Origin: Methanospirillum stamsii
GTDB taxonomy: Archaea; Halobacteriota; Methanomicrobia; Methanomicrobiales; Methanospirillaceae
Assembly (NCBI RefSeq): GCF_003173335.1
Contig: NZ_QGMZ01000029.1
Location: 1 to 64,000, forward strand
Direction: 5' to 3'
DNA length: 64,000 nt
In this document: positions 4,901-38,810 of the stretch, one piece after another
How the letters are laid out: every line of letters starts with the position of its first letter
How positions within the stretch are numbered: position 1 is the stretch's first letter
Made by a program: the position numbers and the translations under genes
Notes under the pieces: generated by a model
The model's input: only the letters and a program-made list of their open reading frames with translations
What the model was told of the DNA's origin: nothing
The model's database searches: none

Positions 4901-5993
4901 TTTCTGTGGTTTCTTCAATTTGAACTGATGGCTGATTATCAGATGAGGGTACCGGTGTGGGTAATGGTGTTGAAATTGGAATGTCAGGATTTACAATAAT
5001 ATAAGAAGGTCGGGTAATTGTATCTTCATTATGAGAACCGGAAACTTCAAGAGTTACTTCATACTTACCGGGGTTTTCAAAAACATGTATGGGGTTTTCT
5101 TCATTCGAATTTGTTCCGTCACCAAAATTCCATAATCGTTTGAGAATAACCCCTTTGTTTTGTTCATAAAACTGAACTTTGAGTGGAGCTTTTCCTTCAG
5201 TAACTTCTGCTGAAAATGATGCAGATACCGGCTCTATAACAGTTATCAGATCTGGTTTTTGAATGGTATCTGTTCCGTCAGTACTGCCAATAGTAAGTGA
5301 TAGGGTATATATTCCCGGATTCTGGTAGATATGAATTGGTGATTGAGCAGCAGAAGTAGAGCCATCTCCAAAATCCCATCTCCAGGTATCTGGATTTCCG
5401 ATTGAAGAATCATTGCACATTACTTCCAACGGTGCAAGACCAACAGGATTTGAGACAGAAAACTCTGCTTTTACTGATGTAATATTGGTAAGACCTTCAG
5501 TCTGCAAATTGTCCTGGTTTTGAACAGTCGGTAAATCATTCTCAATATTATCAGGAGTCTTTATATCGGGATCTACTACAGTATCAGGTCTGGTTATAAC
5601 TTCCTGTTCCTGCTTATCAGGACTATCTACCGGCTCGGATATTTTGATATAGCCGATACGGGTTTTTTTATCAGTTCCTCCGGTTCCGGATATCAATAGA
5701 GAGATAGTATAAACACCCGGATTTGTGTAAATATGAACCGGATTTTTATCCGATGAACTTTCTCCATCTCCAAAAGACCATTCATAATGGTCAATTATTC
5801 CGGTCGATGAATCGGAAAAAGTAATGACACAAGGAGCAGAACCAGACAGTTTATCCGCAAAAAAATCTGCACTGATTGATGTATGCGCATTCTGTACACT
5901 GATCGGAGGAATATCTCCCATCACAAACCCGGATAAAAGTATTAGAAAAATACCCGATATCCAGAAAAGACCGAACCAATTACCCATCTTCAT
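1935..5993 (-). CDS. Secreted surface protein with 13 PKD repeats
   Basis: A 1352-residue exported protein. Residues 1-26 form a signal peptide with a hydrophobic core after MKMGNW. The remainder is 13 PKD-type beta-sandwich repeats of about 80 residues, each with a variant of the W-x-FGDG core and a following H-x-Y-x-x-(P/S)G-x-Y strand. Repeats 1-9 are separated from repeats 10-13 by an acidic, Ser/Asn-rich linker of about 95 residues. A second linker, rich in Pro, Glu and Gln, lies between repeats 3 and 4. Repeat 9 has lost the core (FEFEPG). There is no C-terminal membrane helix, so anchoring must be by another route or the protein is released. PKD arrays are common in methanogen cell-surface proteins and are thought to act in adhesion or as spacers; the exact role here is unknown. 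Confidence 0.88.
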   Translation of the reverse strand: MKMGNWFGLFWISGIFLILLSGFVMGDIPPISVQNAHTSISADFFADKLSGSAPCVITFSDSSTGIIDHYEWSFGDGESSSDKNPVHIYTNPGVYTISLLISGTGGTDKKTRIGYIKISEPVDSPDKQEQEVITRPDTVVDPDIKTPDNIENDLPTVQNQDNLQTEGLTNITSVKAEFSVSNPVGLAPLEVMCNDSSIGNPDTWRWDFGDGSTSAAQSPIHIYQNPGIYTLSLTIGSTDGTDTIQKPDLITVIEPVSASFSAEVTEGKAPLKVQFYEQNKGVILKRLWNFGDGTNSNEENPIHVFENPGKYEVTLEVSGSHNEDTITRPSYIIVNPDIPISTPLPTPVPSSDNQPSVQIEETTENIQDTESVPEVLPAQQESQEIISETLPTESVIAIPIDCDLTITPENGKIPLDVTCTDLSKGDISAWLWDFGDGTTSAEQNPKHRYEEPGTFLINLTVYGPDAGNGVSKEKSIQVNPPSEVPLADFSVSSVEGTTPFSLVCTDMSSGEITDWKWDFGDGKVNRGKNPTHTYYDSGKYSITLTVKGPGGKNSITKDIIASPPPVPLNADFSCNNYEGNVPLKVKFNDASAGQINGWVWRFGDGEISAEQNPEHVYDEPGTYSVRLVISGDLGESEKLYENIIVVKENIVPVQAAFSALPIGGEAPLNVSFTDKSTGDITSRIWQFGDGESSDRKDPSHVYKQPGIYSVSLEVKGETGDDISVKDDLISVLGSSLSPELVIQAEPLEGEAPLSVLFKENSPDDIRSLIWDFGDGITSQEKSPDHVYQNPGIYDVRLTIQDGNGLNRSITKNQFVNVTKPVSPPKANFSLNVTEGTVPCTVQCTDLSEGEISDWKFEFEPGVIQNTRYPVYTYAAPGNYSIRLDVTGPGGSDTTSQMVYLSPLVPVEKPGSENVQSENQSERSGNIEEISNDLIIPFNFTPDIIFESDEITPELIEWVNESGFVEGNDTNSELVSSSETDVTVIVPLDSADNFSSPGYDYPKIIPSETFGTAPMTVAFKSSWSDKPGSFLWEFGDGTTDQCNETEHTYTDSGIYTIRLIYETGNGTREIIDNNLIEVVKPSPVPVASFTAESVSGVMPLNVSFISTSTGNITDWKWDFGDNQTGFGEFVSHTYEKAGGYCVGLSVSGPDGTSEITYNDLITVSSPNIRPKAEFGTDKRTGNAPLLVQFTDQSIGNISKTHWKFGDGAESYEKNPSHLFNATGIYTISLDIEWPDGSDSVTKRGYIVVNTKPDPLVARFAVNPTTGDIPLTIQCTSNSSGPIKRYLWEFGDGAVSEDKNPSHTYTKPGSYLLKLTIYGNAGMSSADQAVIAGPVLRLSGNIAHGSYSSRSSFH

Positions 5994-22524: not shown

Positions 22525-24645
22525 TTATATAAGTTTTATCACATCATGCTTGGGTTCCATCGCTTCACCGGACCTGAGCATTGCAGTAAGCTGCCTTTCA
22601 ACCTCGTCCCGGTCAAAACCCTGCTGCCTGACCAGTTCAACTACATCAGGTTTATGAGCTCTGCCATTTTCATCTGCAACATCCCTGATAACCTGTTTGA
22701 TGGTCCGGATAAGGTCTCGTTTACTCTTGGATACTCCGGTTGCAAGCATGTCAATATCAAAACTTCCGCTGGAAGGATCGTAAGCAACCTGCCGTAAACA
22801 GGTATCAATGATAGTAATAACCCGTTCTGCATCACTCTTCACAATAACCGATGAAAGCCTGATACGGGCTGATGCTTCTGCCAGACGAACGATAGCTTCG
22901 AGTTGTCTTGCGGTTACCGGAACCGGTTTGTTGGCATCGGCAAGATCCCTCAGTTTCATGTAATAGGCAATGAGGGCCTCCCTGGCTTCATCCTCAAGTC
23001 GTGGGAAACAGTTTCTTTTCGCATAAGCCACATATTTGCGGAACATGACCGGATCAATCTCCGGCGTGACCGGTTTTAACTGCTCAGAGATATACTCGTC
23101 ATCAACTCCAGGAATGGGATCCCGGGCATGCTGGGCAATTAATTCACCAACACTGTGGGCTTTTAAAATGTGTTCTGCAATTGCAAGATCCCGTTCATGC
23201 TCCGGCTTATCTGTCAGGACAAATATGAGATCAAATCGTGAGAGCAGTGACGGAGGCATATTAATCTGATCTCCAATCGGTACAAAATCATCAAATCGGC
23301 CATACTTCGGATTGGCAGCACCAAGCAGGGCACACCGTGATTTTAAGGTTGCGGTAATTCCGGCTTTCGCAATTGAGATAGACTGCTGTTCCATTGCCTC
23401 GTGAAGAGCACTCCGGTCATGCTTATCCATCTTATCCATTTCATCAACACAGGCCACACCCATATCTGCGAGAACCAGAGCACCTGCTTCAAGGGTCCAT
23501 CTGCCATCTCCAAACTCGTCTTTCACCGCAGTTGCAGTCAGACCTGCAGAAGTTGTTGACTGACCGGAAGTATAGATAGCCCGGGGAGATAGCCGGACAA
23601 CATACCGAAGCATCTGGGATTTCGCAATACCCGGATCTCCAATCAGAAGAACATGGATATCACCACGAAGTCTGCTTCCATCCGGCATCTCTTTAGCTAT
23701 GCCTCCAAAAAGCTGCAAAGAAATCGCATCCTTGACATCATCCACTCCATAAATTGTCGGAGCGATTGAGTGTGCAATTTTCCGGTAGATGTTAGGATCC
23801 TGGGAAAGACTAATAATCTCTCTTTCATCCTCTTCGCTGATATTAACCTCTTCAAATTCCTTTTCAGCTACCTCTATCGAGTTACATTCAACATAGATGT
23901 CAAAGATGGTGGATTTCGTTCCATAGGAATTTCTTTGCATCGACCGGAGAATACCATTAACAACAATCCGGTCTCCCGGAGCGACAATACCGCAGATATC
24001 ATCCGTTACATCAAGGTCAATAGTCTGTGGCTGTTCCCCTCCACGAAGACCCTCCGGGGACTCCTGAATTCTCAGTTTTTGTGAGTCCACAAACCGTGAA
24101 AAACGGGGTATGAGCTCAAGTTTTTTCTGGGTACATCCATCAGTCTGACAACCGTCAGGTTCCACGAAAGGACCATATGATTGTGCTTTTACTGTCCGGT
24201 GACCGGCAGGACATCGGAATACGGCAAGTGTTATACGTGGTCTGACTTCGGTAGTTTTCCGAAGAATTCCTTCAACACTAATAAATTTCCCGATATGATC
24301 AGAACGGATTTCACGAATAGCTATCTTTCTTGGAAGATTAATAAAACGAATATTAATATCCGGTTGTTCTTCTTTTTTCCTGGTTTTAACAAGCCGGTGT
24401 GTACGTATTGAATCCCTGATATCTCCTATTACCTTACCAGGGTTTTCAAGCAGTTCATCCGCAAGTTCAGTTCCGGTTTTACCAAAACTCTCAATATCCC
24501 GGTAATTGATGTAGAGCGATCTTTTATATGGATATTCGCGTGAAAGTTCATCAAGTTCTTTTTTATATCGCGTCTTAAAAAACCGGTGCCAGTCAGCATC
24601 CCGGTCAGTTATCTCAACAGTTTCTGCATTACTTCCTGATGCCAT
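22525..24645 (-). CDS. mcm: Replicative DNA helicase MCM
   Basis: Minichromosome maintenance helicase, which unwinds DNA at the replication fork as a hexamer. In 706 residues it has an N-terminal domain with a zinc-binding set (C145, H149, C166, C171), an OB-fold region, and an AAA+ core with Walker A GDPGIAKS (336-343), Walker B with DEMDKM and the arginine-finger motif SRFDL. A winged-helix-like C-terminus follows. The length is usual for archaea. It lies 61 bases downstream of the last chemosensory gene on the same strand; rfcS is at the other end of that cluster. Confidence 0.97.
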   Translation of the reverse strand: MASGSNAETVEITDRDADWHRFFKTRYKKELDELSREYPYKRSLYINYRDIESFGKTGTELADELLENPGKVIGDIRDSIRTHRLVKTRKKEEQPDINIRFINLPRKIAIREIRSDHIGKFISVEGILRKTTEVRPRITLAVFRCPAGHRTVKAQSYGPFVEPDGCQTDGCTQKKLELIPRFSRFVDSQKLRIQESPEGLRGGEQPQTIDLDVTDDICGIVAPGDRIVVNGILRSMQRNSYGTKSTIFDIYVECNSIEVAEKEFEEVNISEEDEREIISLSQDPNIYRKIAHSIAPTIYGVDDVKDAISLQLFGGIAKEMPDGSRLRGDIHVLLIGDPGIAKSQMLRYVVRLSPRAIYTSGQSTTSAGLTATAVKDEFGDGRWTLEAGALVLADMGVACVDEMDKMDKHDRSALHEAMEQQSISIAKAGITATLKSRCALLGAANPKYGRFDDFVPIGDQINMPPSLLSRFDLIFVLTDKPEHERDLAIAEHILKAHSVGELIAQHARDPIPGVDDEYISEQLKPVTPEIDPVMFRKYVAYAKRNCFPRLEDEAREALIAYYMKLRDLADANKPVPVTARQLEAIVRLAEASARIRLSSVIVKSDAERVITIIDTCLRQVAYDPSSGSFDIDMLATGVSKSKRDLIRTIKQVIRDVADENGRAHKPDVVELVRQQGFDRDEVERQLTAMLRSGEAMEPKHDVIKLI

Positions 24646-24706
24646 AAATATCCATAAATTCTAATGAAAGAGGAAAGATATCCACAAAGGGGTAATTAGA
24701 TTATCT

Positions 24707-26029
24707 TCATAGAGCATGAGATTTTCTATAATGAACTGAGGGGACTTTTAAAACAAAAAGTGCTCCTTTTCCCGGAATACCACATTCGGTGATTAAAATA
24801 TTGGTAATTGATAAAATCTCACGGACAAGGAATAACCCAAGACCGGTATTTTTTCCATAACCGCGGCTGAAGATCATCTCTTTATCCTCATCCGGGACTC
24901 CGATACCATCATCAGATATACTAATTTCCAGGTTTTCATTCATCTCTTTTGCTGAAATCAAAATTGTTGTTACTTTCTCCCCATGACGAATTGCATTATC
25001 TAATAAATTGTAAAATACTTTTTCAACAAGCGGATCTACAAAAATTTCGTACAGGCGAATATCTGATTCAAGTGAGATGGTTACCGATGAGAAAGAAAGA
25101 ATAACCTTATTTAGAAGATCAAAAAGATCTATCCAGATAGCACCCTTAACACCCAATTCTTCATAGAGCCTGGTAAACTCAATCTGGGCAGATAACCGGG
25201 ATAAAATTTCAGATTCTTTTGTCAGATAATCCTGGAATTCTTTCGCAGGATTATCCATTCTGGCCAGTTCATTATAAGAAAGCAGAGCCATCATGGTATT
25301 TTTCATATCATGCCGGGTTATTGATGATAATAACGATAATTTTTTATTAGACTGAAAAAGAGCCTGTTCAATTCGATTTCTTTCAAGAATCTCATTTTTC
25401 AGATTTGAATTACTCTTTAAAAGTTCAACATTCGCTTCACTCAATTGATAATTAATAACCGCGACTTTTTCTTTTGCCTCAAGAAGTTCGTTATTTTTAT
25501 AAATTGCAATTTCATAGGTAGAAAGTAGGACATTGAGAATTTTTCTGCTGTTAGATGTAATAATGTGATTTTTCCCGTTAAAAAATACCGGAATGCCGGT
25601 TTCATCACCCACACCTACACAAACATCAGAATCCAGGGTATTATTTGAAAGTATTACAGCGACCCTGTCAAGGAGATAATCAGGTTCATACGGCTTAATT
25701 ATGAAATTATCTGCACCACAGGCCAGGCCTTCAATTACATCGGTTGGATCAAATAACTGGGTCACTAAAATGACCGGAATATCACGGGTGGTTGGATCGT
25801 CTTTAATTGTCCGACACAGTTCATATCCATTCATCTCCGGCATCATAACATCGGTAAGAACTATTGTTGGAGGATTTTTCTGGATAAGTTCAAAAGCCTC
25901 CCTGCCATTAGATGCAACGGTGACTAAATATCCTGCCGATTCAAGTAGGTGCCTAAGTATAGCAGCCTGGGTTTTACTATCCTCTGCAATAAGAATCGAT
26001 ACGGCATCTTTGGGACTACATATCTCCAT
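24707..26029 (-). CDS. Receiver-histidine kinase hybrid (REC-linker-HK), terminal gene of the chemosensory operon
   Basis: A 440-residue cytosolic signalling protein. An N-terminal receiver (about 10-130) has the phosphoacceptor D60 in TDVMMP and lysine in IIKP. A linker (about 148-195) is followed by a coiled coil, an H-box with H240 in TRHDMKN and a complete ATPase domain (N-box NLLDNAIRHG, G1 DDGIGVP, G2 TGLGLF). The H-box is of the archaeal RHD-x-x-N type, not HELRTP. The start overlaps the end of the preceding paralogue by 14 bases. Its position after cheB, and the receiver, suggest that it is phosphorylated by the CheA at this locus and passes the signal on. No DNA-binding output domain is present. 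Confidence 0.9.
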   Translation of the reverse strand: MEICSPKDAVSILIAEDSKTQAAILRHLLESAGYLVTVASNGREAFELIQKNPPTIVLTDVMMPEMNGYELCRTIKDDPTTRDIPVILVTQLFDPTDVIEGLACGADNFIIKPYEPDYLLDRVAVILSNNTLDSDVCVGVGDETGIPVFFNGKNHIITSNSRKILNVLLSTYEIAIYKNNELLEAKEKVAVINYQLSEANVELLKSNSNLKNEILERNRIEQALFQSNKKLSLLSSITRHDMKNTMMALLSYNELARMDNPAKEFQDYLTKESEILSRLSAQIEFTRLYEELGVKGAIWIDLFDLLNKVILSFSSVTISLESDIRLYEIFVDPLVEKVFYNLLDNAIRHGEKVTTILISAKEMNENLEISISDDGIGVPDEDKEMIFSRGYGKNTGLGLFLVREILSITNILITECGIPGKGALFVLKVPSVHYRKSHAL

Positions 26030-27383
26030 TATTGCCTCCTTTTTTCTTATTTACATCAGATGAAACCTGAAAGTCCTGATATGGAATCCATACTTCAAAT
26101 GTTGATCCATGACCGAGCCCTTCACTTACAACCTTTACAAATCCCCCATACAATATTATTATCCGCCGGACAATGGCAAGACCGAGACCGTGCGAGGAGT
26201 GGTCATGACGGGATTCATCGGCTTTATAAAAGTCATCAAATACATGATCTACCTGCTTTTCTGTCAACCCGATTCCGGTGTCCTGAATTAACAGGATATG
26301 GTATTTACCTTCCTTTCCATAACAAATATCAATAAATCCTTCATTTTTATTATAGGTAATCGCATTTGAGATGAGATTTTCCAATATCGTCGTGGCATGG
26401 AATGGAGAGATATGAATTATTGTTCCATTTTTTATCGAATTTCTGACTCTCAGGTTCTTCTCCTTTATCTGATATGAATAACTGTTAAGGAGTTCCTGGA
26501 TTATCGGATAGATATCAACGCTGGATATCTCTTTGGTAAATGAATCTATAGTGATGTGAGATAATTTTATAATTCTCTCAACCAGCAACTTTAATATCGT
26601 AATCTCTTTTACCAGCAGGGATAGAATTTCTTTCTTTTCAGGATCATCCTCTTTCTTTTCCAGGAATGGAATAAATGCATACAAGGGGGTCAGAGGGGTC
26701 TTCAGATCATGTCCAATACGGGTTATCAGTTCAGTTCGTTGCACCAGCAGGTGTTCAACTATCTCATTGGTTACTTGTAATGCCTGGGTTCTTTCATTGA
26801 CGGTCTCTTCCAGATGGGTAGTAAATTCATTCAGTTCTTCAGTCGTTTTCTCAAGTTCGTAATTTTTCAAAATAGCGGTCTGATAGATGGAAAATAAAAT
26901 TCGAAGTAAATCTTCTTTAGATGAACGAACTGAATAATCATGACCATTGTATGAATAAAGAGTATCTTCGGCATTTGATAATTTCCCAAATGGATTTTTC
27001 TTACAATCATCCAGAACCTGCGCAACTTCCCGGAGAATGGATTCCCGTTTTACCGGTTTTATGATAAAATCATTAGCTCCGCAACAAAGACCCTTGATAA
27101 TATCAACCGGGTCTGATAACTGGGATACAAGAATAATTGGGATGTGACAAAATTCCGGACTGTCTCTTACCGTTTTACATAACCTATATCCATCCATACC
27201 AGGCATCAGAATATCTGAAAGGAGTAGATCAGGAACAGACTTTTTCATCTCCTCGAGTGCTATCTCAGCATTTTCTGACCATTTGACCTTATATCCTGCA
27301 CTCTTCAGATAATGACAAAGGATCTCAGCCTGTGTCTTGCTATCTTCAATTACCAGAATACAAGGAGATTTTTCAGGTGTCAT
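26016..27383 (-). CDS. Receiver-histidine kinase hybrid (REC-linker-HK)
   Basis: A 455-residue paralogue of the next gene. The receiver has D57 in SDILMP and IIKP. The same linker type (YNG-x-D-Y, then ILF-x-x-YQTAILKN, about 143-180) leads into a coiled coil and a more classical HisKA domain with H225 in GHDLKTPL, then a full ATPase domain (NAITYN, DTGIGL, HGLGLAI). The two proteins are clearly related through receiver and linker but have different H-boxes, suggesting duplication with kinase divergence or exchange. It starts within a 4-base overlap (ATGA) with the end of cheB, so it belongs to the operon. Confidence 0.9.
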   Translation of the reverse strand: MTPEKSPCILVIEDSKTQAEILCHYLKSAGYKVKWSENAEIALEEMKKSVPDLLLSDILMPGMDGYRLCKTVRDSPEFCHIPIILVSQLSDPVDIIKGLCCGANDFIIKPVKRESILREVAQVLDDCKKNPFGKLSNAEDTLYSYNGHDYSVRSSKEDLLRILFSIYQTAILKNYELEKTTEELNEFTTHLEETVNERTQALQVTNEIVEHLLVQRTELITRIGHDLKTPLTPLYAFIPFLEKKEDDPEKKEILSLLVKEITILKLLVERIIKLSHITIDSFTKEISSVDIYPIIQELLNSYSYQIKEKNLRVRNSIKNGTIIHISPFHATTILENLISNAITYNKNEGFIDICYGKEGKYHILLIQDTGIGLTEKQVDHVFDDFYKADESRHDHSSHGLGLAIVRRIIILYGGFVKVVSEGLGHGSTFEVWIPYQDFQVSSDVNKKKGGNNGDM

Positions 27384-28426
27384 GAGCCCTCGGACAGAGA
27401 TGTTAGAATTGAAGAAATCCTTTTAGGAGAGAGAGAATACATGGCTGCGGATAATGATTCTGCAGCACCAGGCATGCCATACACAAATGAGGATTCCCGG
27501 TCCTGGATAATCGTCAGACCACCTTTTTGTCTGATGAGTAGCAACTCATCCGCTCCATCCCGCCCCATGCCGGTAAGAAGAACACCTGCAACGCGATTTC
27601 CAATATTAAGGGCAGCTGTTCGAAACAGATATGAGACCGAGGGACGGAGATTATGTTCCGGGTTGTCATTAGAAAAAATAATCCGGAGGTCCTCCGTAAT
27701 CCCGGTATGTTTTCCGTCAGGGGCAATATAGAGGACTCCTGGCATCAGATGATCACCTTCAGAAGGAATGCAGGTTTTAAAACCGGTTGATTCAAAAAGC
27801 CATAATCCAAGCCCTTCAATAAACCCCGGTGACATATGCTGGACCAGTACCATCGGGAGAGAGAAATCTGATGGAAGATTCATCAGGATTTCCTGGACAA
27901 CCTGGGGCCCTCCGGTTGAGGCACCAAGAACAATAACCCGGATATCTTTTGAGATCTTTTCCGGCGGTAAAACAGGTTCAGTGGATGGGATTTTGGGTGG
28001 GAGATGCCTGCTTCTTCTTTTTATTACTTTTACTTCTGAATACGTCCTTATCGCCAGAATCAGTTCAGCAGCAGCATCCTCAAATGCCGGGTCATCAATT
28101 GCCGGAGGTTTTCGGTACACCGCCAGTGCTCCGGCTTCAACAGCATGAAAAGATGCCCGAATCTCATCTAAATCATCAATACCACTGACAATAATTATCG
28201 GGACCGGAGTATTTTCCATGATCTTCCGGGTCGTAACAAACCCGTCAAGTCCTGGCATGTTGATATCCATCGTGATGATGTCAGGAGTCAGACGGGAAGT
28301 CAGATTAATTGCTTCATTTCCATTCTTCGCCCGCCCTATTACCATGATATCAGGTTCTTTTTCAAAAATTCTCTGTAGTACCTGGAGTGTTACCTCAGAA
28401 TCATCTACCAAAAGGACACGGATCAT
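27380..28426 (-). CDS. cheB: CheB, receptor methylesterase/deamidase
   Basis: A chemoreceptor methylesterase of 348 residues. The receiver domain has D54 in TMDINMP. The esterase domain has the catalytic triad S170 (in LGASTGGP), H197 (in VQHMSPGF) and D290 (in TGMGRDG). Phosphorylation by CheA normally releases the esterase from inhibition, giving adaptation opposite to CheR. Its start overlaps the cheA stop by one base (TAATG) and its end overlaps the next kinase by four, so it lies inside a tightly coupled operon. Confidence 0.96.
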   Translation of the reverse strand: MIRVLLVDDSEVTLQVLQRIFEKEPDIMVIGRAKNGNEAINLTSRLTPDIITMDINMPGLDGFVTTRKIMENTPVPIIIVSGIDDLDEIRASFHAVEAGALAVYRKPPAIDDPAFEDAAAELILAIRTYSEVKVIKRRSRHLPPKIPSTEPVLPPEKISKDIRVIVLGASTGGPQVVQEILMNLPSDFSLPMVLVQHMSPGFIEGLGLWLFESTGFKTCIPSEGDHLMPGVLYIAPDGKHTGITEDLRIIFSNDNPEHNLRPSVSYLFRTAALNIGNRVAGVLLTGMGRDGADELLLIRQKGGLTIIQDRESSFVYGMPGAAESLSAAMYSLSPKRISSILTSLSEGS

Positions 28427-30726
28427 TATCTGCCTGTTACTATGAGTCTTTTTATTACTTCAAGAAGATTTCCCTGATCAAAAGTCGATTTTATGATATA
28501 CGCATTTGCTCCGACCTGAATTCCGTGTTCACGATCTTCCCGGGAATCAAGCGATGTTACAAGAATTATTGGAAGATCAGAGAGATTTTTTTCTCCACGG
28601 ATTTTTTCTGTCAGGATAAAACCATTCATCCTTGGCATATCAACATCCGATACTACAAGGTCGAATGAACTCGCCTTTAACTTGGTAAATGCATCCAGAC
28701 CATCAACGGCAGTCTCAACGTCATATCCGGAACCTTCCAGAATATTTTTGATAAGCATCCGGGAAGTGATGGAATCTTCAGCAACCAGTATTTTCCTCTT
28801 ACCCGGTAATGAAAGGGTTGTTTCTCTTGCCTGATAATCTGATTGCATCTGCCCCTGCATCGCATTTGCAACATCTTCCATATGTAAGACCGGAACTACC
28901 ATAGTAGAATTGAGAATAGCTACTCCGCTGATAAATCTAACTTCTTTCAGTTGAGGTCCCAGAGAACGGATGACAATCTCCTCTGCTCCTGCTATCCTTT
29001 GAACAAAAACTCCAATCTTCCCATTAAAGCACTTAACGATAACCAGAGAGTGCCCCTCATTATCATCCGAGGTACCATTTGAAATTCCAAGAATAGAACC
29101 AAGAAATCCAACCGGAATCATCTCTTCTTCGTAGGAAATAAACATCCGTCCTTCTATGGTAGAGAGATCTGATGATTCCGGATTTAAAACACGAATTATC
29201 TGTTTGAGAGGGATGAAAAATGGCCGGTTTTCAGTATAAACCATGACCCCCCGGAACGTTGCCAGAGATACCGGAATTTTCAGAGTGAACACTGTTCCCT
29301 GCTGCACATTGCTGGTTACATGAACAGATCCACCTACCTGATTTATTTTCTCCTGCACAATTGCGAGACCCAGCCCTCTTCCGGACATCTCAGTAACTAT
29401 CTGTGCTGTTGATAATCCGGATTTAAAAATCAGACGGGTTTTTTCTTTATCATCAAGTTCAGAGAGTTCATCTTTAGAGAGAAACCCTTTCGAAACTGCG
29501 GACGCACTAATCTTTTCTGGATCAATTCCCTGACCATCGTCAGAGATCCTGATACGTATCTGGTTGGCACGATGATGTTCAATCTGAACAGATAATTTCC
29601 CTTTGAGATTTTTCCCCTGCGCTGTTCTTTTTTCAGGAGACTCAATACCATGATCAATTGCATTTCTGATAAGGTGAAGAAGCGGATCCCTGATAATATC
29701 CAGAACTCTTCTATCAATTTCCACTTCATCACCAGAAACTGAAAAATTGATCTCTTTATTCTGTTCTTTCGCAATATCCCGGATCATCCGGGGATAGGTA
29801 TCAGTGAGTGATGAAACAGGTATAAGAACTACTTCCCTGATACTCTCAATAAGACCTGTAATGACAGTATCCATCTCATTCTGATCCTGGTTCATGGTTC
29901 GGATGCCAGCTGAAAGCTCAGTTTCACACCCGGATATCATATCCCTCGTATTATCGATAAATGCCAAAACCCGGTTTACCGATTCCGGATTCTGAAGATC
30001 CATTCTTCTGATAAGTGCAATGTCACCTTCGATGCGATTCAGGCTCCACCTCCATGCCTGAAGTCTCTGCGAGAGCATCTTGAGGTCAGAGAGGCGTGAT
30101 CCTGAGGATAACCGGTATGAGAGAAGATCATCAGCGGTCGAATAAAGATTTTTCAGCCTTTCTTCTGATATCCGGATGGAAGATGCAGGTACCTTTGTAA
30201 TGCCCTGAAAAGACACGGAATCAGATTCCTCTATGGGTTTTGCAATATCCTTTTCCGATGGGAGGGAAGGAGGTTTTTCGAGTACTTCAGGTTCCTGAGA
30301 TACAGGAACCGATCTAAATTGAACAACAGGACCTCCGGAGGCAGCAACTTTTTCCTTAATTTGCTTTATCAGTGTAACGGAAGAAACAGAGCGATTACCT
30401 CCCAGCATCTGTTCAAGTACTCCGATTACCTGGTGGATGAGATCAAAATCCTCGTTTTGAAGGATTAATTCTTTTTTTCTGACAACCGAAAAAAGTGTTT
30501 CCAGATTCTGACACAAGGTTTCTATTTCCCTCAGGCCAACAGCTCTTGCCGCCCCTTTCAGACTATGACAGGCCCGGTATACTGGTTCTATCTCTTCTGA
30601 CTGGTTTTTTTCCGGATTTTGTTCAAGTACCAGTATTCCGGAGACAATCGTCTGAATATGGTCTGTTGCTTCCTCACTGAATGTCTGCAACAGTCGTGCA
30701 AGAAACTCATCGTCCTGCAAAGCCAT
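28426..30726 (-). CDS. cheA: CheA histidine kinase with C-terminal receiver
   Basis: A hybrid chemosensory kinase of 766 residues. An HPt domain at the N-terminus has H54 in CHSLKGAA. A linker without a clear CheY-binding P2 domain leads to the dimerisation helices (about 190-290), the ATPase domain (LIRNAIDHG, DDGQGID, GRGLGLAIV), a CheW-like domain (about 475-610) and a C-terminal receiver with D694 in SDVDMP. A fused receiver and no P2 are typical of Wsp/Frz-type CheA proteins rather than those of motility systems. The stop is coupled to cheB; the MCP gene ends 8 bases upstream. Confidence 0.95.
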   Translation of the reverse strand: MALQDDEFLARLLQTFSEEATDHIQTIVSGILVLEQNPEKNQSEEIEPVYRACHSLKGAARAVGLREIETLCQNLETLFSVVRKKELILQNEDFDLIHQVIGVLEQMLGGNRSVSSVTLIKQIKEKVAASGGPVVQFRSVPVSQEPEVLEKPPSLPSEKDIAKPIEESDSVSFQGITKVPASSIRISEERLKNLYSTADDLLSYRLSSGSRLSDLKMLSQRLQAWRWSLNRIEGDIALIRRMDLQNPESVNRVLAFIDNTRDMISGCETELSAGIRTMNQDQNEMDTVITGLIESIREVVLIPVSSLTDTYPRMIRDIAKEQNKEINFSVSGDEVEIDRRVLDIIRDPLLHLIRNAIDHGIESPEKRTAQGKNLKGKLSVQIEHHRANQIRIRISDDGQGIDPEKISASAVSKGFLSKDELSELDDKEKTRLIFKSGLSTAQIVTEMSGRGLGLAIVQEKINQVGGSVHVTSNVQQGTVFTLKIPVSLATFRGVMVYTENRPFFIPLKQIIRVLNPESSDLSTIEGRMFISYEEEMIPVGFLGSILGISNGTSDDNEGHSLVIVKCFNGKIGVFVQRIAGAEEIVIRSLGPQLKEVRFISGVAILNSTMVVPVLHMEDVANAMQGQMQSDYQARETTLSLPGKRKILVAEDSITSRMLIKNILEGSGYDVETAVDGLDAFTKLKASSFDLVVSDVDMPRMNGFILTEKIRGEKNLSDLPIILVTSLDSREDREHGIQVGANAYIIKSTFDQGNLLEVIKRLIVTGR

Positions 30727-30734
30727 GATAGTTT

Positions 30735-33209
30735 TCAGACCCTGAATCGTTCGGTAATTTCTTTCAGACTATTTCCAAGGTCATGCAGATCGCGAGCTGT
30801 CTTCTCTACATGCCTTGTTACTTCCAGGTTATTTTGTGCTGCAGTCCGGATATTCTCCATGGCAATGGAGATCTGATCCATTCCAACAACCTGTTCCTGA
30901 CTCGAAGCAGTTATCTGAACCGATGCCCGTGCAGCATCAATGATACTCTGTGAAAGAACCGATATTGCCTCCTGCGCTTCAGTTGTCAGTTTCATCCCGG
31001 TTGCTACCGTTTTGGTTCCCTGCTCTGTGGATATCACCGTAGAACTGATACCACGCTGTATGTCAGTCAGTATATTCCGGATATTAGTGGTTGCCTGCTT
31101 TGATTGCTCTGCAAGAGTTTTAATCTCCTGTGCCACAACACCGAACCCTTTTCCAAATTCTCCGGCTTTTGCTGCCTCAATAGAGGCATTCACCGCTAAA
31201 AGATTGGATTGTTCAGCAATATCAGTAACACTCACAATAATCTCACCAATTGCCTGACTTTGTTCAGACAACCTGATAACATTGGATGCGATTGATTCCA
31301 TCTGCTGATTAATATGCGTCATCCCGGTACTGATCTCCTCAACTGAAGACTGACCGGTTTTTACCACCTGGTTTACTGCCTGGGCTTTTTCAGATACCGC
31401 TTTTGCCTTCTGATTTGTAACTTCCGTGGTTTTTCTGACTTCCTCAACCGTTGCAGATGTCTCGTTTACTGCAGATGCAGTTTCAGCAGTGCTTGATGAT
31501 AACTGGGCCGTAACTGAAAGTATTTCCGAAGAAGCAGATGAAAGTACATTTACTCCCTGGTATAATTCATCATTGATGATGGTCATCATTCTGGAGAGTT
31601 CAATGCCGGTCCTGTTCAGGGCCTCCTTAAAGGAGAGATACTCCCCCTGCATCTTCAGGTTTTCATCAACCCGGGAAGTAAAATTCCCTTTTGAATACTC
31701 TTCTGAAACACGCATTGCTTCGTGAATCGGTTCAATCACCGCATCTAGAGTATAATTTACTCCTTCAATGATTCGTCTGAAATCGCCCTGATGCCTGGAT
31801 GCATCAGCACGAATATTCAGTTTTCCTTCAATCGCCGCTTCTGAAAGGGCATTTGCATCAGATATCATCAGATTGATGGCATCGATACAATGATTCAGAT
31901 TATTTTTTATAAGAGAGAAGTCGCCCCGGTATTCTTCTGTTATTAAATCGGGAATATCACCGTTGGAGATACGTTCTACATATTCTGCAGCCATATTAAG
32001 AGGACCAATTATTGAATCCAGCATCTCATTGATCCCATTGAACATATCCCTGCTGTACCCAGAATATTTTGAAGTTTCTATTCGAAAATCCAGTTTCCCT
32101 GCAATACCATTGGAGATTAAAAGTTCTATGTCCTTATTTCTCTGGTTTAATATGACAACCAGTTCATTCAGATTTTCACGTATTTCTTCAAAAGAACCAG
32201 TAAAAGGAGTTTCTATTGGGGATGGGATGGTGCCATGTGTGATTTCATTGATATAACCTGCAGTTATACGTAAAGGATTTGCATATGCTGCAAGTGAATC
32301 ATTCATCCCGACGATAATTTTCCGGAAATCGCCCTCATGTTTATCTGGATCAACGCGGTAAGACATTTCTCCACGGACTGAGGCATCTGACAAACTGATT
32401 GCATCATTCACCAGTTCCGAGATAGTATTTCCCATTTTATCAACTGCTAATCCCATTACACCGATTTCATCACTCCGGGAAAAAGAACATCTCGCATTAC
32501 TATCACCCTGACCAATCCGGTTAGCAACGTCCATAACTTCTTCAAGAGGCCGGGTAATAGAATGGGTGAGAAGGTATGCAATTATTAAAGATATGAGTAT
32601 TATTAAAGAGCCAAATATTACAATAATAAGATATAAATGGGCCATTTCTTCTTCAGATACCTGAAGTGTTTCCTTAGCCTCAGTAAGGAGGAGTGTATGA
32701 AGGTCAGCAAATGTGGACTCAGTGGCACGTCTGATTGTAGCATGTTCTCCTCCGTCCATCACCGATACCCGGGCTTCTTTTTCTTTTCCCAGTTTTTCAA
32801 GTTCGTATACCTTTAATGAGGCAGCTTTATACTGGGCCCACTGCGTTTCAAATGTTGAAAAAATATCCTTTTGATTTTCACCCTCATATCCTCTCGTTAA
32901 TTCACTCAGGATCAGATCAATATCAGCAATTTCTGAAAGCATGCGCTCATAATCGGTATCCCGTTCTTCTGGAATGGCAATAGAACGGAAAACCAGCGAA
33001 CGGATAGAATTGAGCTTTGCTTCCACATTCCCAGTCTCAAATATAGGCAAAGCCTCGTTGTAATAAATGTTATTTACATCATTAGAGAGAGAATTTATAC
33101 TAAGTAGACATGCCACAATAACCAGCGACATAAGAAAGATAACAATTATAAATCCTCCAAGTAATTTTTTCCCGATTGTAATATTATTTAATATTGAACT
33201 CACACTCAT
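30735..33209 (-). CDS. Methyl-accepting chemotaxis protein with repeated HAMP-like units
   Basis: A membrane chemoreceptor of 824 residues. TM1 (about 18-38) and TM2 (about 192-214) enclose an extracytoplasmic helical domain of about 150 residues, probably a four-helix bundle. A HAMP domain follows TM2; then come several HAMP-like units up to about residue 535, with repeated G-(K/E)-(L/M)-x-x-R-x-(D/E), then GDFR-x-I-I-x-G-x-N-x-x-LDA. The signalling domain is at the C-terminus, with the hairpin tip around [19 protein letters not shown]. It lacks a C-terminal CheR-docking pentapeptide. A GAGGTG ribosome-binding site and a separate TATA box precede it, so it may also be transcribed from its own promoter. 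Confidence 0.95.
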
Positions 33210-33252
33210 GATTTCACCTCATATCTTTAGATTTTTTTCCAAGGGTCCATAT

Positions 33253-33272
33253 TTATTCTATATGTATCTTTC
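33253..33272 (-). promoter_or_regulatory. Possible internal promoter upstream of the MCP gene
   Basis: In the 106-base gap after cheW, the minus strand reads GAAAGATACATATAGAATA. The GAAAG resembles a BRE element and ATATAGAATA a TATA box, about 45-60 bases before the MCP ATG. The predicted transcript start would leave a leader of about 20 bases containing GAGGTG. This would allow the receptor, cheA, cheB and the kinases to be expressed apart from the upstream cheW-cheR genes. Confidence 0.45.
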
Positions 33273-33315
33273 AAATAAAATTCATCCCCAAAAAATTTTC
33301 TTTTTTTTGAAGGAT

Positions 33316-33885
33316 TCATATCCGGATAGCTGAACTTTGAACTATTAATCGTTTATCCGTGAGTAACAATTCAGCATTGATGAGAATAACCGGGCCAGGA
33401 AATACCCCGGAAAGAAAATCCTTTTCCGTGCCTCGAAGGATATCAGGCGGATGGGACAAAAGGTTCAGGTCCATGGATTTTACTCCTGCGACCTGATCTG
33501 CTAGGACCGCATATTCCATCCCTTTTCCGGATAGGATGATAATTTTATTATAATCTGAAAGACCTTTACGAGGGAGATGAAAAAAGACCCTCAGATCCGT
33601 TACTGAAATGATTTTTCCTCTGACGTTGATTATGCCAAGAATAAAATCAGGTGTTCCGGGAAGAGGAGAGAGATGCCTCAAAAGAGTCACTTCCCTGACA
33701 TACTGCATCGGGAGAGCATATCGCTCTCCACTTAGAAAAAACTCCAGAATGTCAATTGGGTTTTGCTGCAGTGAATCGGTAATAAAGGGAACTGCCAGGG
33801 ATTTCGCCCGCTCCTTTAATAAACCGGACTCATAATCAGTGAGTGCACTGGTATCCACATTGCTTTCTTTTTCTTCCCAATTCAT
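33316..33885 (-). CDS. cheW: CheW coupling protein (downstream copy)
   Basis: A 189-residue CheW-like adaptor linking receptor and CheA. An N-terminal extension of about 45 residues precedes the CheW domain, which shows (I/L)-x-F-x-L-x-G-x-x-YALP, V-x-G-I-I-NVRGKI and the (V/L)-x-DLRVFF segment. It lies 4 bases downstream of cheR. It is one of two cheW genes at the locus; in the Wsp system the two CheW-like proteins are likewise separated by the CheR gene. Confidence 0.9.
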   Translation of the reverse strand: MNWEEKESNVDTSALTDYESGLLKERAKSLAVPFITDSLQQNPIDILEFFLSGERYALPMQYVREVTLLRHLSPLPGTPDFILGIINVRGKIISVTDLRVFFHLPRKGLSDYNKIIILSGKGMEYAVLADQVAGVKSMDLNLLSHPPDILRGTEKDFLSGVFPGPVILINAELLLTDKRLIVQSSAIRI

Positions 33886-33889
33886 ACAA

Positions 33890-35407
33890 TCATTCCTTTA
33901 AGAGAATCCGGATCATATCTTTCATTTTATCCGCAGGGATTCCTTCGGTTTCTTCCAGCACCTGTATCTCAGGCATTGTTTCAAGAATCTGAATTGCAAT
34001 GCTATAATGATGACGTGCAAGGTCTGATTTCCCAAGATTCATATAAATACCAGCTATGGAAAGATGTGCAGGGAGATAATCAGGGTCCGCATATAAAGAC
34101 TGGCGCAGTAATTGAATTGCATGGTCTCTGAATCCGTTTTCATCCAGAACTGCTGCTTTTATGAGATATGGTTTTGGATTTAATGGATCCTGAGATATCA
34201 ACCGATCACTCCATCCAAGGGCTTTCTCGTAATCTCCAAGTCCTGCATATGCTTTAATCAGAATTCCCATCTCCCGGGTTACATCTCCATATCCGGATAA
34301 AAAACCCTTTTGATTGACAATTTCTCCCGCATCATCCAGTCTGTTTTCAGTAATAAGTGCATCAAATAAATTTTTTTCCAGTTCAGGATTAGCCGGAAGT
34401 TTTGAAGGTTTGACAAAACCTAATTCCGGATATTTCTTTTCTGACGTCAATTCATAAAAAGAATCTTCATGTTCGTTGTGAAGAAATTCAATTTGGTGAA
34501 AATCAGAAACGCTTTCTGGCTTTGGACTATTAATATGAATTTCAGCTTCTTTTAATTGTTTTTTACCTTTTACATGGAGGAAAACCTGCCCGTGGTGAAA
34601 CAGATTAAGATATGGATTATTAATAATGCCAATTTCCTGGGGAGAAACAATGAGAAAACCATCATTTCGTAAAGTTTCAGCAAGATGTAAAACAACTCCC
34701 TGTGCCTGGGAAGGAGAGAAATACATGAGGACATTCCGACAGAGAATAATGTCCAGGGAGGAGGGACCGAGTGAATGATACATAAAAGAATCCTGGATTA
34801 AATTCCTACATTCAAACCGGACCATAGATTTAATGCATTCATCAATCTTTAATCTGTTATCAGGCGTCGGGGTAAAATACTGCCCGATAGAGACCAATGG
34901 TTCATCGCGAAAAGACCAACGTGAGTATTCACCTGTTAATGCCCGATCAATCATTCCCTGGTTTATATCAGTTGCAAGTAAGTAAATATCCCAGTCAGCG
35001 ATATCCAAAAGCAGATACCGGAGAAGGATTGCCAGGGAATACGGCTCTTCTCCGCTGCTACAAGCAGCACTCCATATCCGTAAATAGAGTTTGTTAGTTT
35101 TTCGTCGCTCACGAATCAAATCTGGCAGAAGGATATCTTTAAGATATAAGAACAGGTTTTTATCCCGAAAAAAGTAAGTTTCCCCAATCGTTATACGTTT
35201 AATAATTTTTTCTAAAAAATGCTGGGTGAACGTTTTGTCTGATAATTTGTGTATGCATGAATCTACCGGAACATCAATCTCTTCACATGTCCGGATAATA
35301 TGACGGACCAGATCCTGTTCGTGACGTTCATTAAACAAAATCCCGGTATGTGAAATGATAAGATCTTTTATTGTCTGTATGATTGTACTATCCACAAACT
35401 CATTCAT
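33890..35407 (-). CDS. cheR: CheR methyltransferase with C-terminal TPR repeats
   Basis: A receptor methyltransferase of 505 residues. The N-terminal helical domain ends in RITIGETYFFRD (71-82, the CheR substrate motif). The SAM-binding segment is WSAACSSGEEPYS (112-124), and CRNVLMYF is present. Residues from about 355 on form TPR helices (YAGLGDYEKALG, then ADPDYLPAHLSIAGIYMNLGK). CheR with TPRs is characteristic of WspC/FrzF-type systems, where the TPRs set target choice. The start overlaps the upstream cheW by 4 bases. Confidence 0.94.
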   Translation of the reverse strand: MNEFVDSTIIQTIKDLIISHTGILFNERHEQDLVRHIIRTCEEIDVPVDSCIHKLSDKTFTQHFLEKIIKRITIGETYFFRDKNLFLYLKDILLPDLIRERRKTNKLYLRIWSAACSSGEEPYSLAILLRYLLLDIADWDIYLLATDINQGMIDRALTGEYSRWSFRDEPLVSIGQYFTPTPDNRLKIDECIKSMVRFECRNLIQDSFMYHSLGPSSLDIILCRNVLMYFSPSQAQGVVLHLAETLRNDGFLIVSPQEIGIINNPYLNLFHHGQVFLHVKGKKQLKEAEIHINSPKPESVSDFHQIEFLHNEHEDSFYELTSEKKYPELGFVKPSKLPANPELEKNLFDALITENRLDDAGEIVNQKGFLSGYGDVTREMGILIKAYAGLGDYEKALGWSDRLISQDPLNPKPYLIKAAVLDENGFRDHAIQLLRQSLYADPDYLPAHLSIAGIYMNLGKSDLARHHYSIAIQILETMPEIQVLEETEGIPADKMKDMIRILLKE

Positions 35408-35913
35408 ATCGCCACCAGGGATTCATACAATTTTTGAAGACTCTCTTCGTCTTCACTGGTTAAAAAGTCTTCAGGACAGGTAATAACCAAAAGTCCATCA
35501 TTACATTGATAAACTCCGGATAATCCGGATATACCTGGGATAATAGAACCAGGAGATACAATATCCTTTATAGGGCTGAATACTTCTCCGATAAATTCCG
35601 CAATAATTGCAATATTTCGGGTTTTCCGGGTAATAAGTAAAAAATCAGAGGGTTTTATTACTTTATCAGGGAAGTGAAGAAAAGTCCGGAGGGAAAAAAC
35701 CGGTAAAATCTGACCATGATAATTAATAATTCCGACAACACCAGGAGGAGCATGTAGCAGAGGAGTTATCTCCACCATCCTGATAACATGGTCTATAATT
35801 CCTGCAGGAATCGCAAACCTGATATCATTGACAGTAAACAGCAGAAGATTCTCCGGTTTCTGCTCACAAATATCGGTTATGTCTTCTTTATTATTATCGT
35901 GTGTTTTTTCCAC
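35404..35913 (-). CDS. cheW: CheW coupling protein (upstream copy)
   Basis: A 169-residue CheW domain protein, with [32 protein letters not shown] and [12 protein letters not shown] marking the fold. The likely start is GTG 35913, inside the end of rfcS (20-base overlap, different frame); there is no strong ribosome-binding site, so it may depend on translation of rfcS. It ends in a 4-base overlap with cheR. This makes the chemosensory operon physically continuous with rfcS. Confidence 0.88.
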
Positions 35914-36865
35914 CGTACATCACAAATTTTGCGATAAGAGACTGCATCTGAATGTCACTACCAGCTCCCTCGGAAAGACGGAAATCAGTTTCTCCAAGAG
36001 AATCAATAAGTCGTACCTTGATATTTTCAGGTAAATCCCGTTTCATTATTGCCCGATAGAGCTGACCTATCAATTCCTGTGGAGCAATCCCCCGGTCATG
36101 AAGAAGGGATGCAAGGGTCCCTCCTGCTCCGGGAAAATTACCGGCAAGACAAAGTTCAATCAGGTCATCTATCTCTTCCGGTCTAGCTGTAGCCGTTATT
36201 GCATATATCATATCAGGACTTATCTCTCTGCCAAGAATTGCTGCACCCTGTAATGCATTTATGGCTTTTCGCATATCTCCCTGGGCAATGTAAAAGATTG
36301 CATTAATGACCTCTTCAGAAACAGTCAGGTTCTGATCTTTTTCAATACGATGAACCATTTCTGCCACAGCCTGTTTTCCAAGGGGTCTGAACCGATAGAT
36401 TGCACAACGACTCTGGATAGGATCTATGATTTTTGCCGAATAATTACAGGAAAGAATAAACCTGCAGGTCTGTGCATAGGTTTCCATGGTACGCCTGAGA
36501 GCCGACTGGGCATCTGAAGTCAGTGCATCAGCCTCGTCCAAAAAGAGTATTTTAAATGTTGAACCACCAAACGGCGAAGTTCTGGCAAATTGTTTGATCT
36601 GGTTCCTGACAACATCAATCCCACGTTCATCTGATGCATTTAATTCACGAAAATTCATCTGCCAGTCATCACCAAAAAATTCTCTGGCTAGAGCAACAGC
36701 AGCGGTTGTTTTTCCTGTCCCTGCGTTCCCTGTAAAAAGCAGATGCGGCATTTCATGTTTTGCCACATATGATGTTAATCGCTCAATTATCTCAGGCTGG
36801 CCAATAATATCAGACAAGTGGTGTGGCCGGTATTTTTCAATCCATATCGCATGTGTTTCGTCCAT
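35894..36865 (-). CDS. rfcS: Replication factor C small subunit
   Basis: Clamp-loader AAA+ subunit that loads PCNA during replication. The 323-residue protein has EKYRP at the start, Walker [10 protein letters not shown], Walker B FLDEADAL, the SRC motif (SRCAIYRF) and the normal C-terminal collar domain. Its last 20 bases overlap the first cheW of the chemosensory operon, which is unusual company for this gene. ATG 36865 has GAGGT about 11 bases upstream. Confidence 0.96.
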
Positions 36866-36887
36866 TTATTACAAAACCTCAAATTTT

Positions 36888-36922
36888 ATTGTTATAAATT
36901 ATAAGAATCCATTATACCTGAT
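36888..36922 (-). promoter_or_regulatory. Promoter region of rfcS and possibly the chemosensory operon
   Basis: Two TATA-like elements are visible on the minus strand: TATAATTTATAA (36892-36903) and GTATAATGG (about 36911-36919). The farther one would give a leader of about 25 bases that includes the GAGGT site; the nearer one would give an almost leaderless transcript. Because rfcS overlaps cheW, this may also drive the chemosensory genes. Confidence 0.35.
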
Positions 36923-36959
36923 TGCTCTATCAAATCTGACGGATACGTTATTCTCATAC

Positions 36960-38810
36960 TTATTTCAAATTTTCATTCAATATAGATTCTTCTTTAGTCA
37001 CCCTGTCCAATACTAATTTTTCCAGACAGGCCCTATACCGGACAACAAATCGTGTATCTTCAGGATCAAGTGCGAGGGCCCGTTCATAACAGATTTTTGC
37101 GGCGGGTTTTTCTCCCGATAAATACAAAGCATCACCCAGATAACCCCAGGCTTCCGGATTTTTCCGGTCCAGTGTCGTAGCGCAGGTCAGACTTTTTCGT
37201 GCATTAGCATAGTCTTCAGTGTGTATTTCAGCCATACCCTTGAGAAGAAATGCATCATACCAGTCCGGCCTGATATCTGCAGCCTGTGCAGCACTGAATG
37301 CAGCATCCTGATAAAATCCAAGGTCCATCAATACCCGTGCTCTCGACAACCAGATCTCCGGATTTTCAGGCATTTTCGTAATTGCATCAGTATATAAAAC
37401 AAGGGCCCTATCAGGATCTCCGGATTGTTCACATGCCTGACCGGCAAGATAAACAAGATTTGAGTCATGTGGCTGCTGCTCAATAAGTTTGTCAAAATAC
37501 CGGATAGATTGTTCAAATTCTTTCATCTGTGCAAGTAAAGACGAAAGACGGGACAGTACCTGGCAATCCTGTGGATGTTCTGATTCAAGTGATAATAAAA
37601 GTTCTCGTGCTTCTTTTGTGCGTCCGGAAAAAACCAGAAGATCCGACAGAACGATTGGAATCTGAAGACCGGGAATCTGATTCATTCCCTCCTGTAAGGC
37701 AACTATTGCCTTGTCAGTTTCACCAAGATGCCACCCATGCACCCGTGCATAGGTAGTTACCCAGAAAGGGTTTTCCGGATCTAATTCCATTTGAAGCAAA
37801 CAAAACGAAGCAACCTCGTCATACCGACGGAGCAGGTATAATGACCGGGCATATCCTTCTGCCGCTGCACGGTTTTCCGGATGAGAACGAATAATATCTG
37901 AAAAAACCTGCAATGCTTTTTCATATTGTTCACAAGCACCAAGGGCTCTTCCATACTGCAGCATTACTTCAGGCCCGTCAGATAATGAAACCGCAGTTTC
38001 AAGTGATTTAACCGCTTCCTCATTTTTATCCAGAATTGAATAAACAAGACCGGAGAGAAGATATGGGAGATGGCTGTCAGAGTCAAGATGGGTTGCCATC
38101 CGGAAACATGCAATGGATTTTGTCAGCTCATCAGATATGAGATAGCAGAGTCCTTTTTTCAGCCAGGGCACCAATTGTTCAGGGTCCAGTGCAATTAGTT
38201 TGTCATAACAGGCAATTTCATCACTTTTCCGCCCTTGTTCCTCATACAAACGTGCCAGATTATACCAGGTTTCAGTATCTGATGAATCATGCTCTGAACT
38301 CTCATAAAACCAGCGTTCAGCCTCTTCGAATTTCCCTAATTTTTGAGCAATCAGACCAAGATGGAGCATTACCGAAATGTTTCCGGGATCAAAAACAAGA
38401 GCATCGGCAAAATATTTCTTCGCTTTCTCAAAGTTTTGGTTTTTATAAAAGAGGGAACCTAATTCAACCCGGGGTTCAGATGATAAAGGTTCTAAATGGA
38501 TACATTTTAAAAAAAAATCTTCGGCTTCATTCAGATTCTCAGACACTTTTGCAAGTAATCCAAGTTCAAAACAGATATCCGCTCTATCAGGATGTTCTTC
38601 ATGCAAATTTTTCAATAACTCATCGGCTTCTTCTATTCTTCCGGCAAGTCTGAGTGTGTGACCCTTGTTAAACCAGGCAGTACTGTCATTTGGTTCATCA
38701 TTGATAATTAACTGAATACAGGCAATCGCTTTATCATACTCTCCTTGCTGTGCATGATGAATTGCACGAAGCATAATGAGTTCTTTTTCCCGTGTTTGCA
38801 TATGAACCAT
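36960..38810 (-). CDS. Cytosolic tetratricopeptide-repeat protein
   Basis: A 616-residue protein built almost wholly of TPR units of 34 residues (repeated A-x-x-x-(Y/F)-x-x-A, then LDP/P-(E/D)-x-x-x-x-W). There is no signal peptide or membrane helix, so it is a cytosolic scaffold; its partners are unknown. An alternative start, ATG 38801, is three codons downstream; neither has a clear ribosome-binding site. It lies between rfcS and a secreted TPR protein, all on the minus strand. A link to the TPR-containing CheR cluster is possible but unsupported. Confidence 0.85.
   Translation of the reverse strand: MVHMQTREKELIMLRAIHHAQQGEYDKAIACIQLIINDEPNDSTAWFNKGHTLRLAGRIEEADELLKNLHEEHPDRADICFELGLLAKVSENLNEAEDFFLKCIHLEPLSSEPRVELGSLFYKNQNFEKAKKYFADALVFDPGNISVMLHLGLIAQKLGKFEEAERWFYESSEHDSSDTETWYNLARLYEEQGRKSDEIACYDKLIALDPEQLVPWLKKGLCYLISDELTKSIACFRMATHLDSDSHLPYLLSGLVYSILDKNEEAVKSLETAVSLSDGPEVMLQYGRALGACEQYEKALQVFSDIIRSHPENRAAAEGYARSLYLLRRYDEVASFCLLQMELDPENPFWVTTYARVHGWHLGETDKAIVALQEGMNQIPGLQIPIVLSDLLVFSGRTKEARELLLSLESEHPQDCQVLSRLSSLLAQMKEFEQSIRYFDKLIEQQPHDSNLVYLAGQACEQSGDPDRALVLYTDAITKMPENPEIWLSRARVLMDLGFYQDAAFSAAQAADIRPDWYDAFLLKGMAEIHTEDYANARKSLTCATTLDRKNPEAWGYLGDALYLSGEKPAAKICYERALALDPEDTRFVVRYRACLEKLVLDRVTKEESILNENLK

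Follow-up and report, generated by a model that had tools for sequence, protein, structure and literature searches.

The segment that joins an N-terminal receiver (REC) domain to the kinase in two tandem proteins of Methanospirillum stamsii marks output proteins encoded beside chemosensory genes, and there is good support for regarding it as a C-terminal extension of one REC subfamily, present in Methanomicrobiales and in bacteria. It probably constitutes the C-terminal half of an extended REC module, the front end of the outputs of Wsp-like (ACF-class) operons, which would pass the REC signal on via a helix. This reading is rated no higher than probable because part of the tie to chemosensory genes may be due simply to the REC subfamily. 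The two proteins, designated P0001 and P0002, are encoded within the window, that is, the whole stretch of 64,000 nucleotides that was analysed (positions 1 to 64,000 of contig NZ_QGMZ01000029.1).

The chemosensory operon and its two kinases

The genes form a compact operon on the minus strand, in the order CheW (35404..35913), CheR with C-terminal TPR matches (WspC-like; 33890..35407), a second CheW (33316..33885), a chemoreceptor with 4HB_MCP_1, HAMP, three HAMP_2 stretches, and MCPsignal (30735..33209), CheA with a CheW-like domain and a C-terminal REC (CheA-REC; 28426..30726), the REC-methylesterase CheB (27380..28426), P0002 (455 aa; 26016..27383), and P0001 (440 aa; 24707..26029). The first four were assigned by domain search and the next two from the list of open reading frames (ORFs) and Pfam. 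P0002 begins 4 nt before CheB ends, and the P0002 and P0001 ORFs overlap by 14 nt, which suggests that translation of the three is coupled. Scans of positions 24000-37000 for promoters and terminators gave counts near the shuffle level (27 vs. 35.3 and 12 vs. 10.0, respectively). An ORF at 35894-36865, presumably resembling the small subunit of replication factor C, shares 20 nt with the beginning of the first cheW; consequently, the chemosensory operon may be transcribed together with it. Elsewhere in the window, positions 1935-5993 hold a 1352-aa ORF with many repeats that presumably resemble PKD domains.

By gene content, the operon matches the Wsp-like, ACF class. The phylogenomic classes of chemosensory systems, including the ACF clade, were reportedly defined in one published study. 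The window contains CheW, CheR-TPR, an MCP, CheA, and CheB as well as a multidomain response regulator, and the combination of CheR-TPR with multidomain response regulators is described as typical of ACF-class pathways (PMC3447774). In the cited passages of that 2012 paper, the CheR-TPR clusters are said to encode REC fused to HK (about 40%), GGDEF, EAL, PAS, GAF, and other domains, and it is suggested that REC phosphorylation may modulate the autokinase; the same REC-output fusions occur here, and those passages mention no segment that the proteins have in common between REC and output. The closest match is the H-system of Burkholderia Wsp, in which, according to the cited part of the source, genes of the Wsp type are found with the REC-histidine kinase WspH in place of WspR (PMC8552884). 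The same part states that WspE phosphorylates WspR and that WspH is the REC-kinase output of Wsp. Both window proteins likewise have REC fused to a histidine kinase; in contrast to the Burkholderia system, however, the window operon comes from an archaeon and encodes a tandem pair of REC-kinases. The kind of operon and its REC-kinase outputs are therefore already known, as is the S-helix considered below.

In both proteins, Pfam places REC at the N terminus (P0001 residues 10-126, 25652..26002, with PF00072 at residues 12-123; P0002 residues 7-123, 27015..27365, with PF00072 at residues 9-120) and HATPase_c at the C terminus (P0001 residues 335-431, 24737..25027; P0002 residues 330-436, 26076..26396). 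The receivers score above the PF00072 cut-off and have the active-site Asp, Thr/Ser, and Lys; each of the residues D60, T90, and K112 is present in 75 of 76 homologues. HisKA exceeds its cut-off only in P0002, the P0001 value being 13.6 bits (E 0.073). As the first-pass annotation of this DNA had stated, the H-box reads TRHDMKN in P0001 (residues 238-244, 25298..25318) and GHDLKTP in P0002 (residues 224-230, 26694..26714). TRHDxxN is found in many Methanomicrobiales relatives, while bacterial relatives have SHELRTP, AHDFNN, and others; the H-box pattern matched nothing in many rows. A functional division based on the H-box difference was considered and rejected as unproven, given that H-boxes vary widely among relatives. 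The difference probably arose as outputs were swapped, or diverged, while the front end stayed constant.

The segment between receiver and output

The adaptor core spans residues 148-183 of P0001 (25481..25588), where the structural model has a hairpin and the start of a long helix, and residues 143-178 of P0002 (26850..26957), where it is placed by similarity. Identities between the two proteins amount to 59/117 in REC, 13/36 in the linker, which aligns without gaps, and 53/204 in the kinase. A first-pass claim was that this linker is common to both proteins and unrecognised. The local score of one linker against the other is 70, and 3000 shuffles gave a mean of 20 (sd 4) and a maximum of 43, so the similarity stays non-random when the receivers are left out. 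Its lack of a Pfam assignment holds as well. In a scan of 45 linkers (alignment A6), the best entry was T6PP_N, in 2 of the 45; none of the 40 that were rescanned singly reached a curated cut-off, T6PP_N giving 19.6 bits (L045) and 13.7 bits (L051) vs. a cut-off of 25, and neither window linker had a Pfam match at E 0.1.

Among known structures, no convincing match emerged. The A6 profile had one match among PDB sequences, 3v3k_B at E 0.033, and this was read, together with the weak matches of alignment A1 (E 0.98 and 1.7), as chance. Structures of WspR exist in the PDB, and none is among the PDB matches listed for the linker profiles. Foldseek with the linker predicted alone gave a best E of 3.2, although a hairpin-helix of 66 residues is too small for this value to exclude a relative; with the whole model, fold searches matched receivers, PleD, and other response regulators. 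At 185.6 bits, the best PDB match of a profile covering REC and adaptor is 3gt7, which is the receiver of a sensor protein from Syntrophus aciditrophicus; the match joins positions 4-144 of the 210 in the profile to chain residues 9-149 of 154. This receiver probably belongs to the same REC subfamily; by position, its construct would end about where the long helix of the adaptor begins. The library structure has 132 residues and aligns to the model as far as chain residue 135.

The tie between linker and receiver is close. A REC lies upstream in the same ORF in 189 of 192 ORFs found with the linker profile, a redundant set in which some genes are counted more than once; in two of the three exceptions the ORF starts at the linker itself, and the third is a weak match (E 6e-4). 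The distance from the end of REC to the linker is 18-27 residues in all 76 proteins counted. When 14 bacterial genomes were searched with a profile of REC only, 304 matches were obtained at E 1e-20 or better. Linker ORFs (15 genes) contain 16 of the 17 highest-scoring ones, a top rank that is expected of a profile built from the RECs of linker proteins. The remaining one (L210) is a REC of the same subfamily at about 1501-1845, in a different frame and just upstream of the linker ORF (1-2148); it represents either a tandem REC shifted out of frame or a gene of its own. Below these 17, the score falls from 138 to 126 bits, and none of the RECs below the drop is in a linker ORF (12 loci examined; a 13th, L221, was set aside since it holds a neighbouring linker ORF). 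Because of this gap, the sequences fit the idea that REC and linker travel together.

What follows the linker is far more varied. Among 76 proteins, the outputs include HATPase (59), HisKA (33), GGDEF (5), SpoIIE (4), EAL (2), and HD (2), and one PAS family occurs in up to 17. An orphan REC-linker protein in the genome of the window (L225:6771-8102, C2) has no H-box His where its relatives have TRHDxxN. The His is also absent from its relatives L069, L070, and L073, and the L225 protein may therefore be a pseudokinase or a binding partner.

The structure prediction proposed in the first-pass annotation was carried out with AlphaFold on 76 homologues and returned REC, a beta-hairpin (strands 146-150 and 153-157 of P0001), and one long helix (161-234), with a mean pLDDT of 90.3 and block means of 73-86 over adaptor residues 141-180. 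The same hairpin and helix elements appeared when the linker was predicted alone. Mean conservation is 2.58 bits in the helix part, 2.51 in REC, 2.10 in the hairpin, and 0.92 in the spacer, figures that are partly inflated since 68 loci were fetched by patterns on the QILN and LSTYE stretches; linker matches found by profile only vary more, e.g., SSYE or STFE. Conserved polar residues of the adaptor include S170, T171, E173, and K178.

Columns 148-200 are gapless over 76 sequences, and the helical register can be compared with that of the S-helix, a parallel coiled coil that links receiver to catalytic domain and bears an ERT signature, the Arg of which is placed at position d in the cited part of its description (Anantharaman et al. 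2006, PMC1592074). Of the seven phases, the one with this Arg at d has the highest a/d conservation (2.88 vs. 1.79 elsewhere), although phase 4 is close behind (2.61) and surpasses it in the hydropathy of the a/d positions. In the former register, Tyr172 and Asn179 would occupy a, and Leu168, Ala175, and Leu182 would occupy d, as in a parallel two-helix coiled coil. P0002 carries the signature between REC and the catalytic domain (residues 197-199, 26787..26795, counted by eye), its Arg lying 31 residues after the invariant Tyr167 of the adaptor, and to judge from this sequence it would have an S-helix. The Tyr/Phe could be placed in 132 of 136 distinct linker stretches, and [EDA]RT was sought 20-60 residues beyond it: the motif is present in 33 of the 132 proteins, with the Arg exactly 31 residues past the Tyr/Phe in 31 of these. 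Strict ERT is found in 27 linker proteins, in 23 at the 31-residue distance, as against 8 of 673 other downstream windows.

Given this spacing, it might be supposed that the linker is merely the N-terminal end of the known S-helix and deserves no name of its own, particularly as S-helices have been reported between a receiver and a kinase, GGDEF, or HD-GYP domain (PMC1592074, in part). However, [EDA]RT is missing from the searched stretch in 99 of the 132 linker proteins. One of these is P0001; its residues 146-245 contain no ERT, and it lacks the S-helix signature. Furthermore, the hairpin and the LLSTYE..A..KN.EL helix precede the roughly 40-residue S-helix, and the cited part of PMC1592074 names no hairpin. 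An adaptor that starts with a beta-hairpin, lies before the S-helix, and is present even where ERT is lacking makes this supposition improbable.

Distribution and gene neighbourhood

With the linker alone as query, four copies were found in the genome of the window, and a profile recovered the same four. A single linker sequence matches 34 of 61 genomes (this one and 60 relatives). In a sample of the phylum (196 genomes), the profile matched 18, all of the same order as the window. A collection of species genomes was scanned with patterns, for which the wide linker alignment (A1) was too variable and a closer set (A2) was used; this yielded 68 linker loci. Their labels include Methanomicrobiales, Methanoperedenaceae, Geobacteraceae with other deltaproteobacteria, Nitrospirae, Verrucomicrobia, Acidobacteria, Dehalococcoidia, Elusimicrobia, Aminicenantes, Bacteroidetes, Rhodocyclaceae, Slackia, and others. 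The Slackia copy, from a MAG (L068:4680-6035), is a REC-linker protein with a GGDEF-type motif on a long branch, and contamination or transfer is possible. By profile only, and counting the central genome of each sample, the linker was found in 16 of 148 genomes in the phylum of a Geobacteraceae genome (G061), in 17 of 150 in the order of an Aromatoleum genome (G066), and in 3 of 115, one match being weak, in the phylum of a Verrucomicrobium genome (G064).

A quick tree of 78 REC-linker rows was built with SH-aLRT support only and no inferred root. Twenty-nine archaeal rows fall on one side of a branch (support 97), with the archaeal L042 and L056 among bacteria. A long branch of its own (support 99) unites P0002 with three relatives, apart from the group of P0001. 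On the strength of this placement in a quick unrooted tree, a recent duplication giving rise to P0001 and P0002 was rejected. Tandem pairs of REC-linker genes are also present in Geobacter/Desulfuromonas relatives (L053, L060, L063), in Spartobacteria (L066, L093), and in other Methanomicrobiales (L031, L160); consequently, such pairing seems to recur across unrelated groups. In Geobacter relatives and in Methanospirillum, the upstream copy of the pair is on a long branch.

These findings bear on the module as it was first conceived, a small one shared by two archaeal paralogues. The tandem genes and their common architecture agree with that conception, and the idea of a small conserved signalling module has held up; what has not is its confinement to these kinases or to archaea. 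Since the linker is found in many bacterial phyla, since P0002 lies on a long branch apart from P0001, and since the outputs vary, the original form of the idea is hardly credible.

Chemosensory genes are present in the fetched flanks of 52 of the 68 linker loci. The linker gene lies directly behind CheB in 38, behind CheA in 10, and behind neither in 20, where some contigs are cut and other loci are orphan-like, e.g., L225. All 43 CheA ORFs found near linker genes have a C-terminal REC. As the 68 loci were derived from patterns, loci found by profile only were checked separately: a chemosensory gene is located within about 1.5 kb in 14 of 19 (L115-L117 and L122-L137; 13 CheB and 1 MCP), and CheB within the same distance in 17 of 18 (L257-L274), the sole miss being a weak match without REC. 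In a control, the best PF00072 matches in 14 linker genomes gave 30 loci, all free of the linker, and a chemosensory gene was found at 1 of these loci, although these best scorers may mostly represent other REC classes. Of the 12 closest linker-free RECs, 3 lie near a chemosensory gene, so the REC subfamily may explain part of the association. Conversely, in the phylum sample around G061, none of the 30 loci with the best CheB matches has the linker, and it is therefore present in a minority of che clusters. A second chemosensory cluster of the M. stamsii genome (L226:3378-10704, C3) contains a 359-aa ORF matching both CheW queries, an MCP, a CheA-REC, and a REC-linker-kinase, with no CheB in the 14 kb examined. 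A REC protein at L226:1192-3336 shows an S-helix-like ATRTAEL stretch and no linker match; by eye, the H-box His of its kinase part is absent.

So strong a tie to chemosensory neighbours is also what would be expected if the hairpin-helix were mainly a docking surface for the array (CheA, CheW, or CheB) that confers specificity, the signal being carried by an ordinary coiled coil. In addition, the conserved polar residues S170, T171, E173, and K178 need not all serve the core of a coiled coil. However, the indel-free spacing into the ERT helix and the conservation at a/d positions argue for a role in helical transmission, and the orphan copy L225 keeps the linker. Docking as the main function is accordingly considered unlikely, though less so than the S-helix alternative.

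A proposed signalling route and its meaning

Under the favoured reading of the linker as the second half of an extended REC module, the receptors and CheWs would control CheA-REC, which, by analogy with WspE and its targets WspR/WspH, would phosphorylate the REC of the output protein. The phosphorylated REC dimer would then change its packing on the hairpin, and the hairpin would twist or re-register a parallel two-helix coiled coil whose start lies in the adaptor. This coiled coil is predicted to run without indels into a coiled coil or, in P0002, an S-helix and then into the DHp helices, so that autophosphorylation of the kinase would be raised or lowered. In other species, the same front end would act on the GGDEF, EAL, HD, SpoIIE, or PAS domains that it precedes. 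With two outputs and different kinases on one array, a single signal might be divided between two phosphorelays. What was observed comprises the module itself, the shape predicted for it, its fixed spacing along the helix, its co-occurrence with one REC subfamily, and its gene position beside chemosensory genes; the signalling steps are inferred from these.

A more far-reaching hypothesis can be put forward tentatively. In bacteria and some archaea, REC plus hairpin-helix could be a standardised plug dedicated to CheA-REC arrays, onto which many outputs have been bolted and which reads phosphorylation as a fixed helical movement. In the open-licence PMC literature, neither a match to the linker motif strings nor a description of the hairpin-helix adaptor, or of its tie to the REC subfamily and to CheA-REC, was found; apparently, the adaptor has not been described so far.

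Little is understood of the way in which a receiver governs a histidine kinase fused to its C-terminal side, and assigning outputs to non-motility chemosensory systems is difficult. The linker signature provides a practical marker for chemosensory outputs and a segment of about 36 residues that is open to mutation. If the notion of a dedicated plug is true, the signature finds the outputs of non-motility chemosensory systems and offers a ready part for the construction of CheA-controlled enzymes. For Methanospirillum stamsii itself, the findings suggest that a Wsp-like array feeds two different kinases, and the presence of two H-box types on one array would allow two separate relays.
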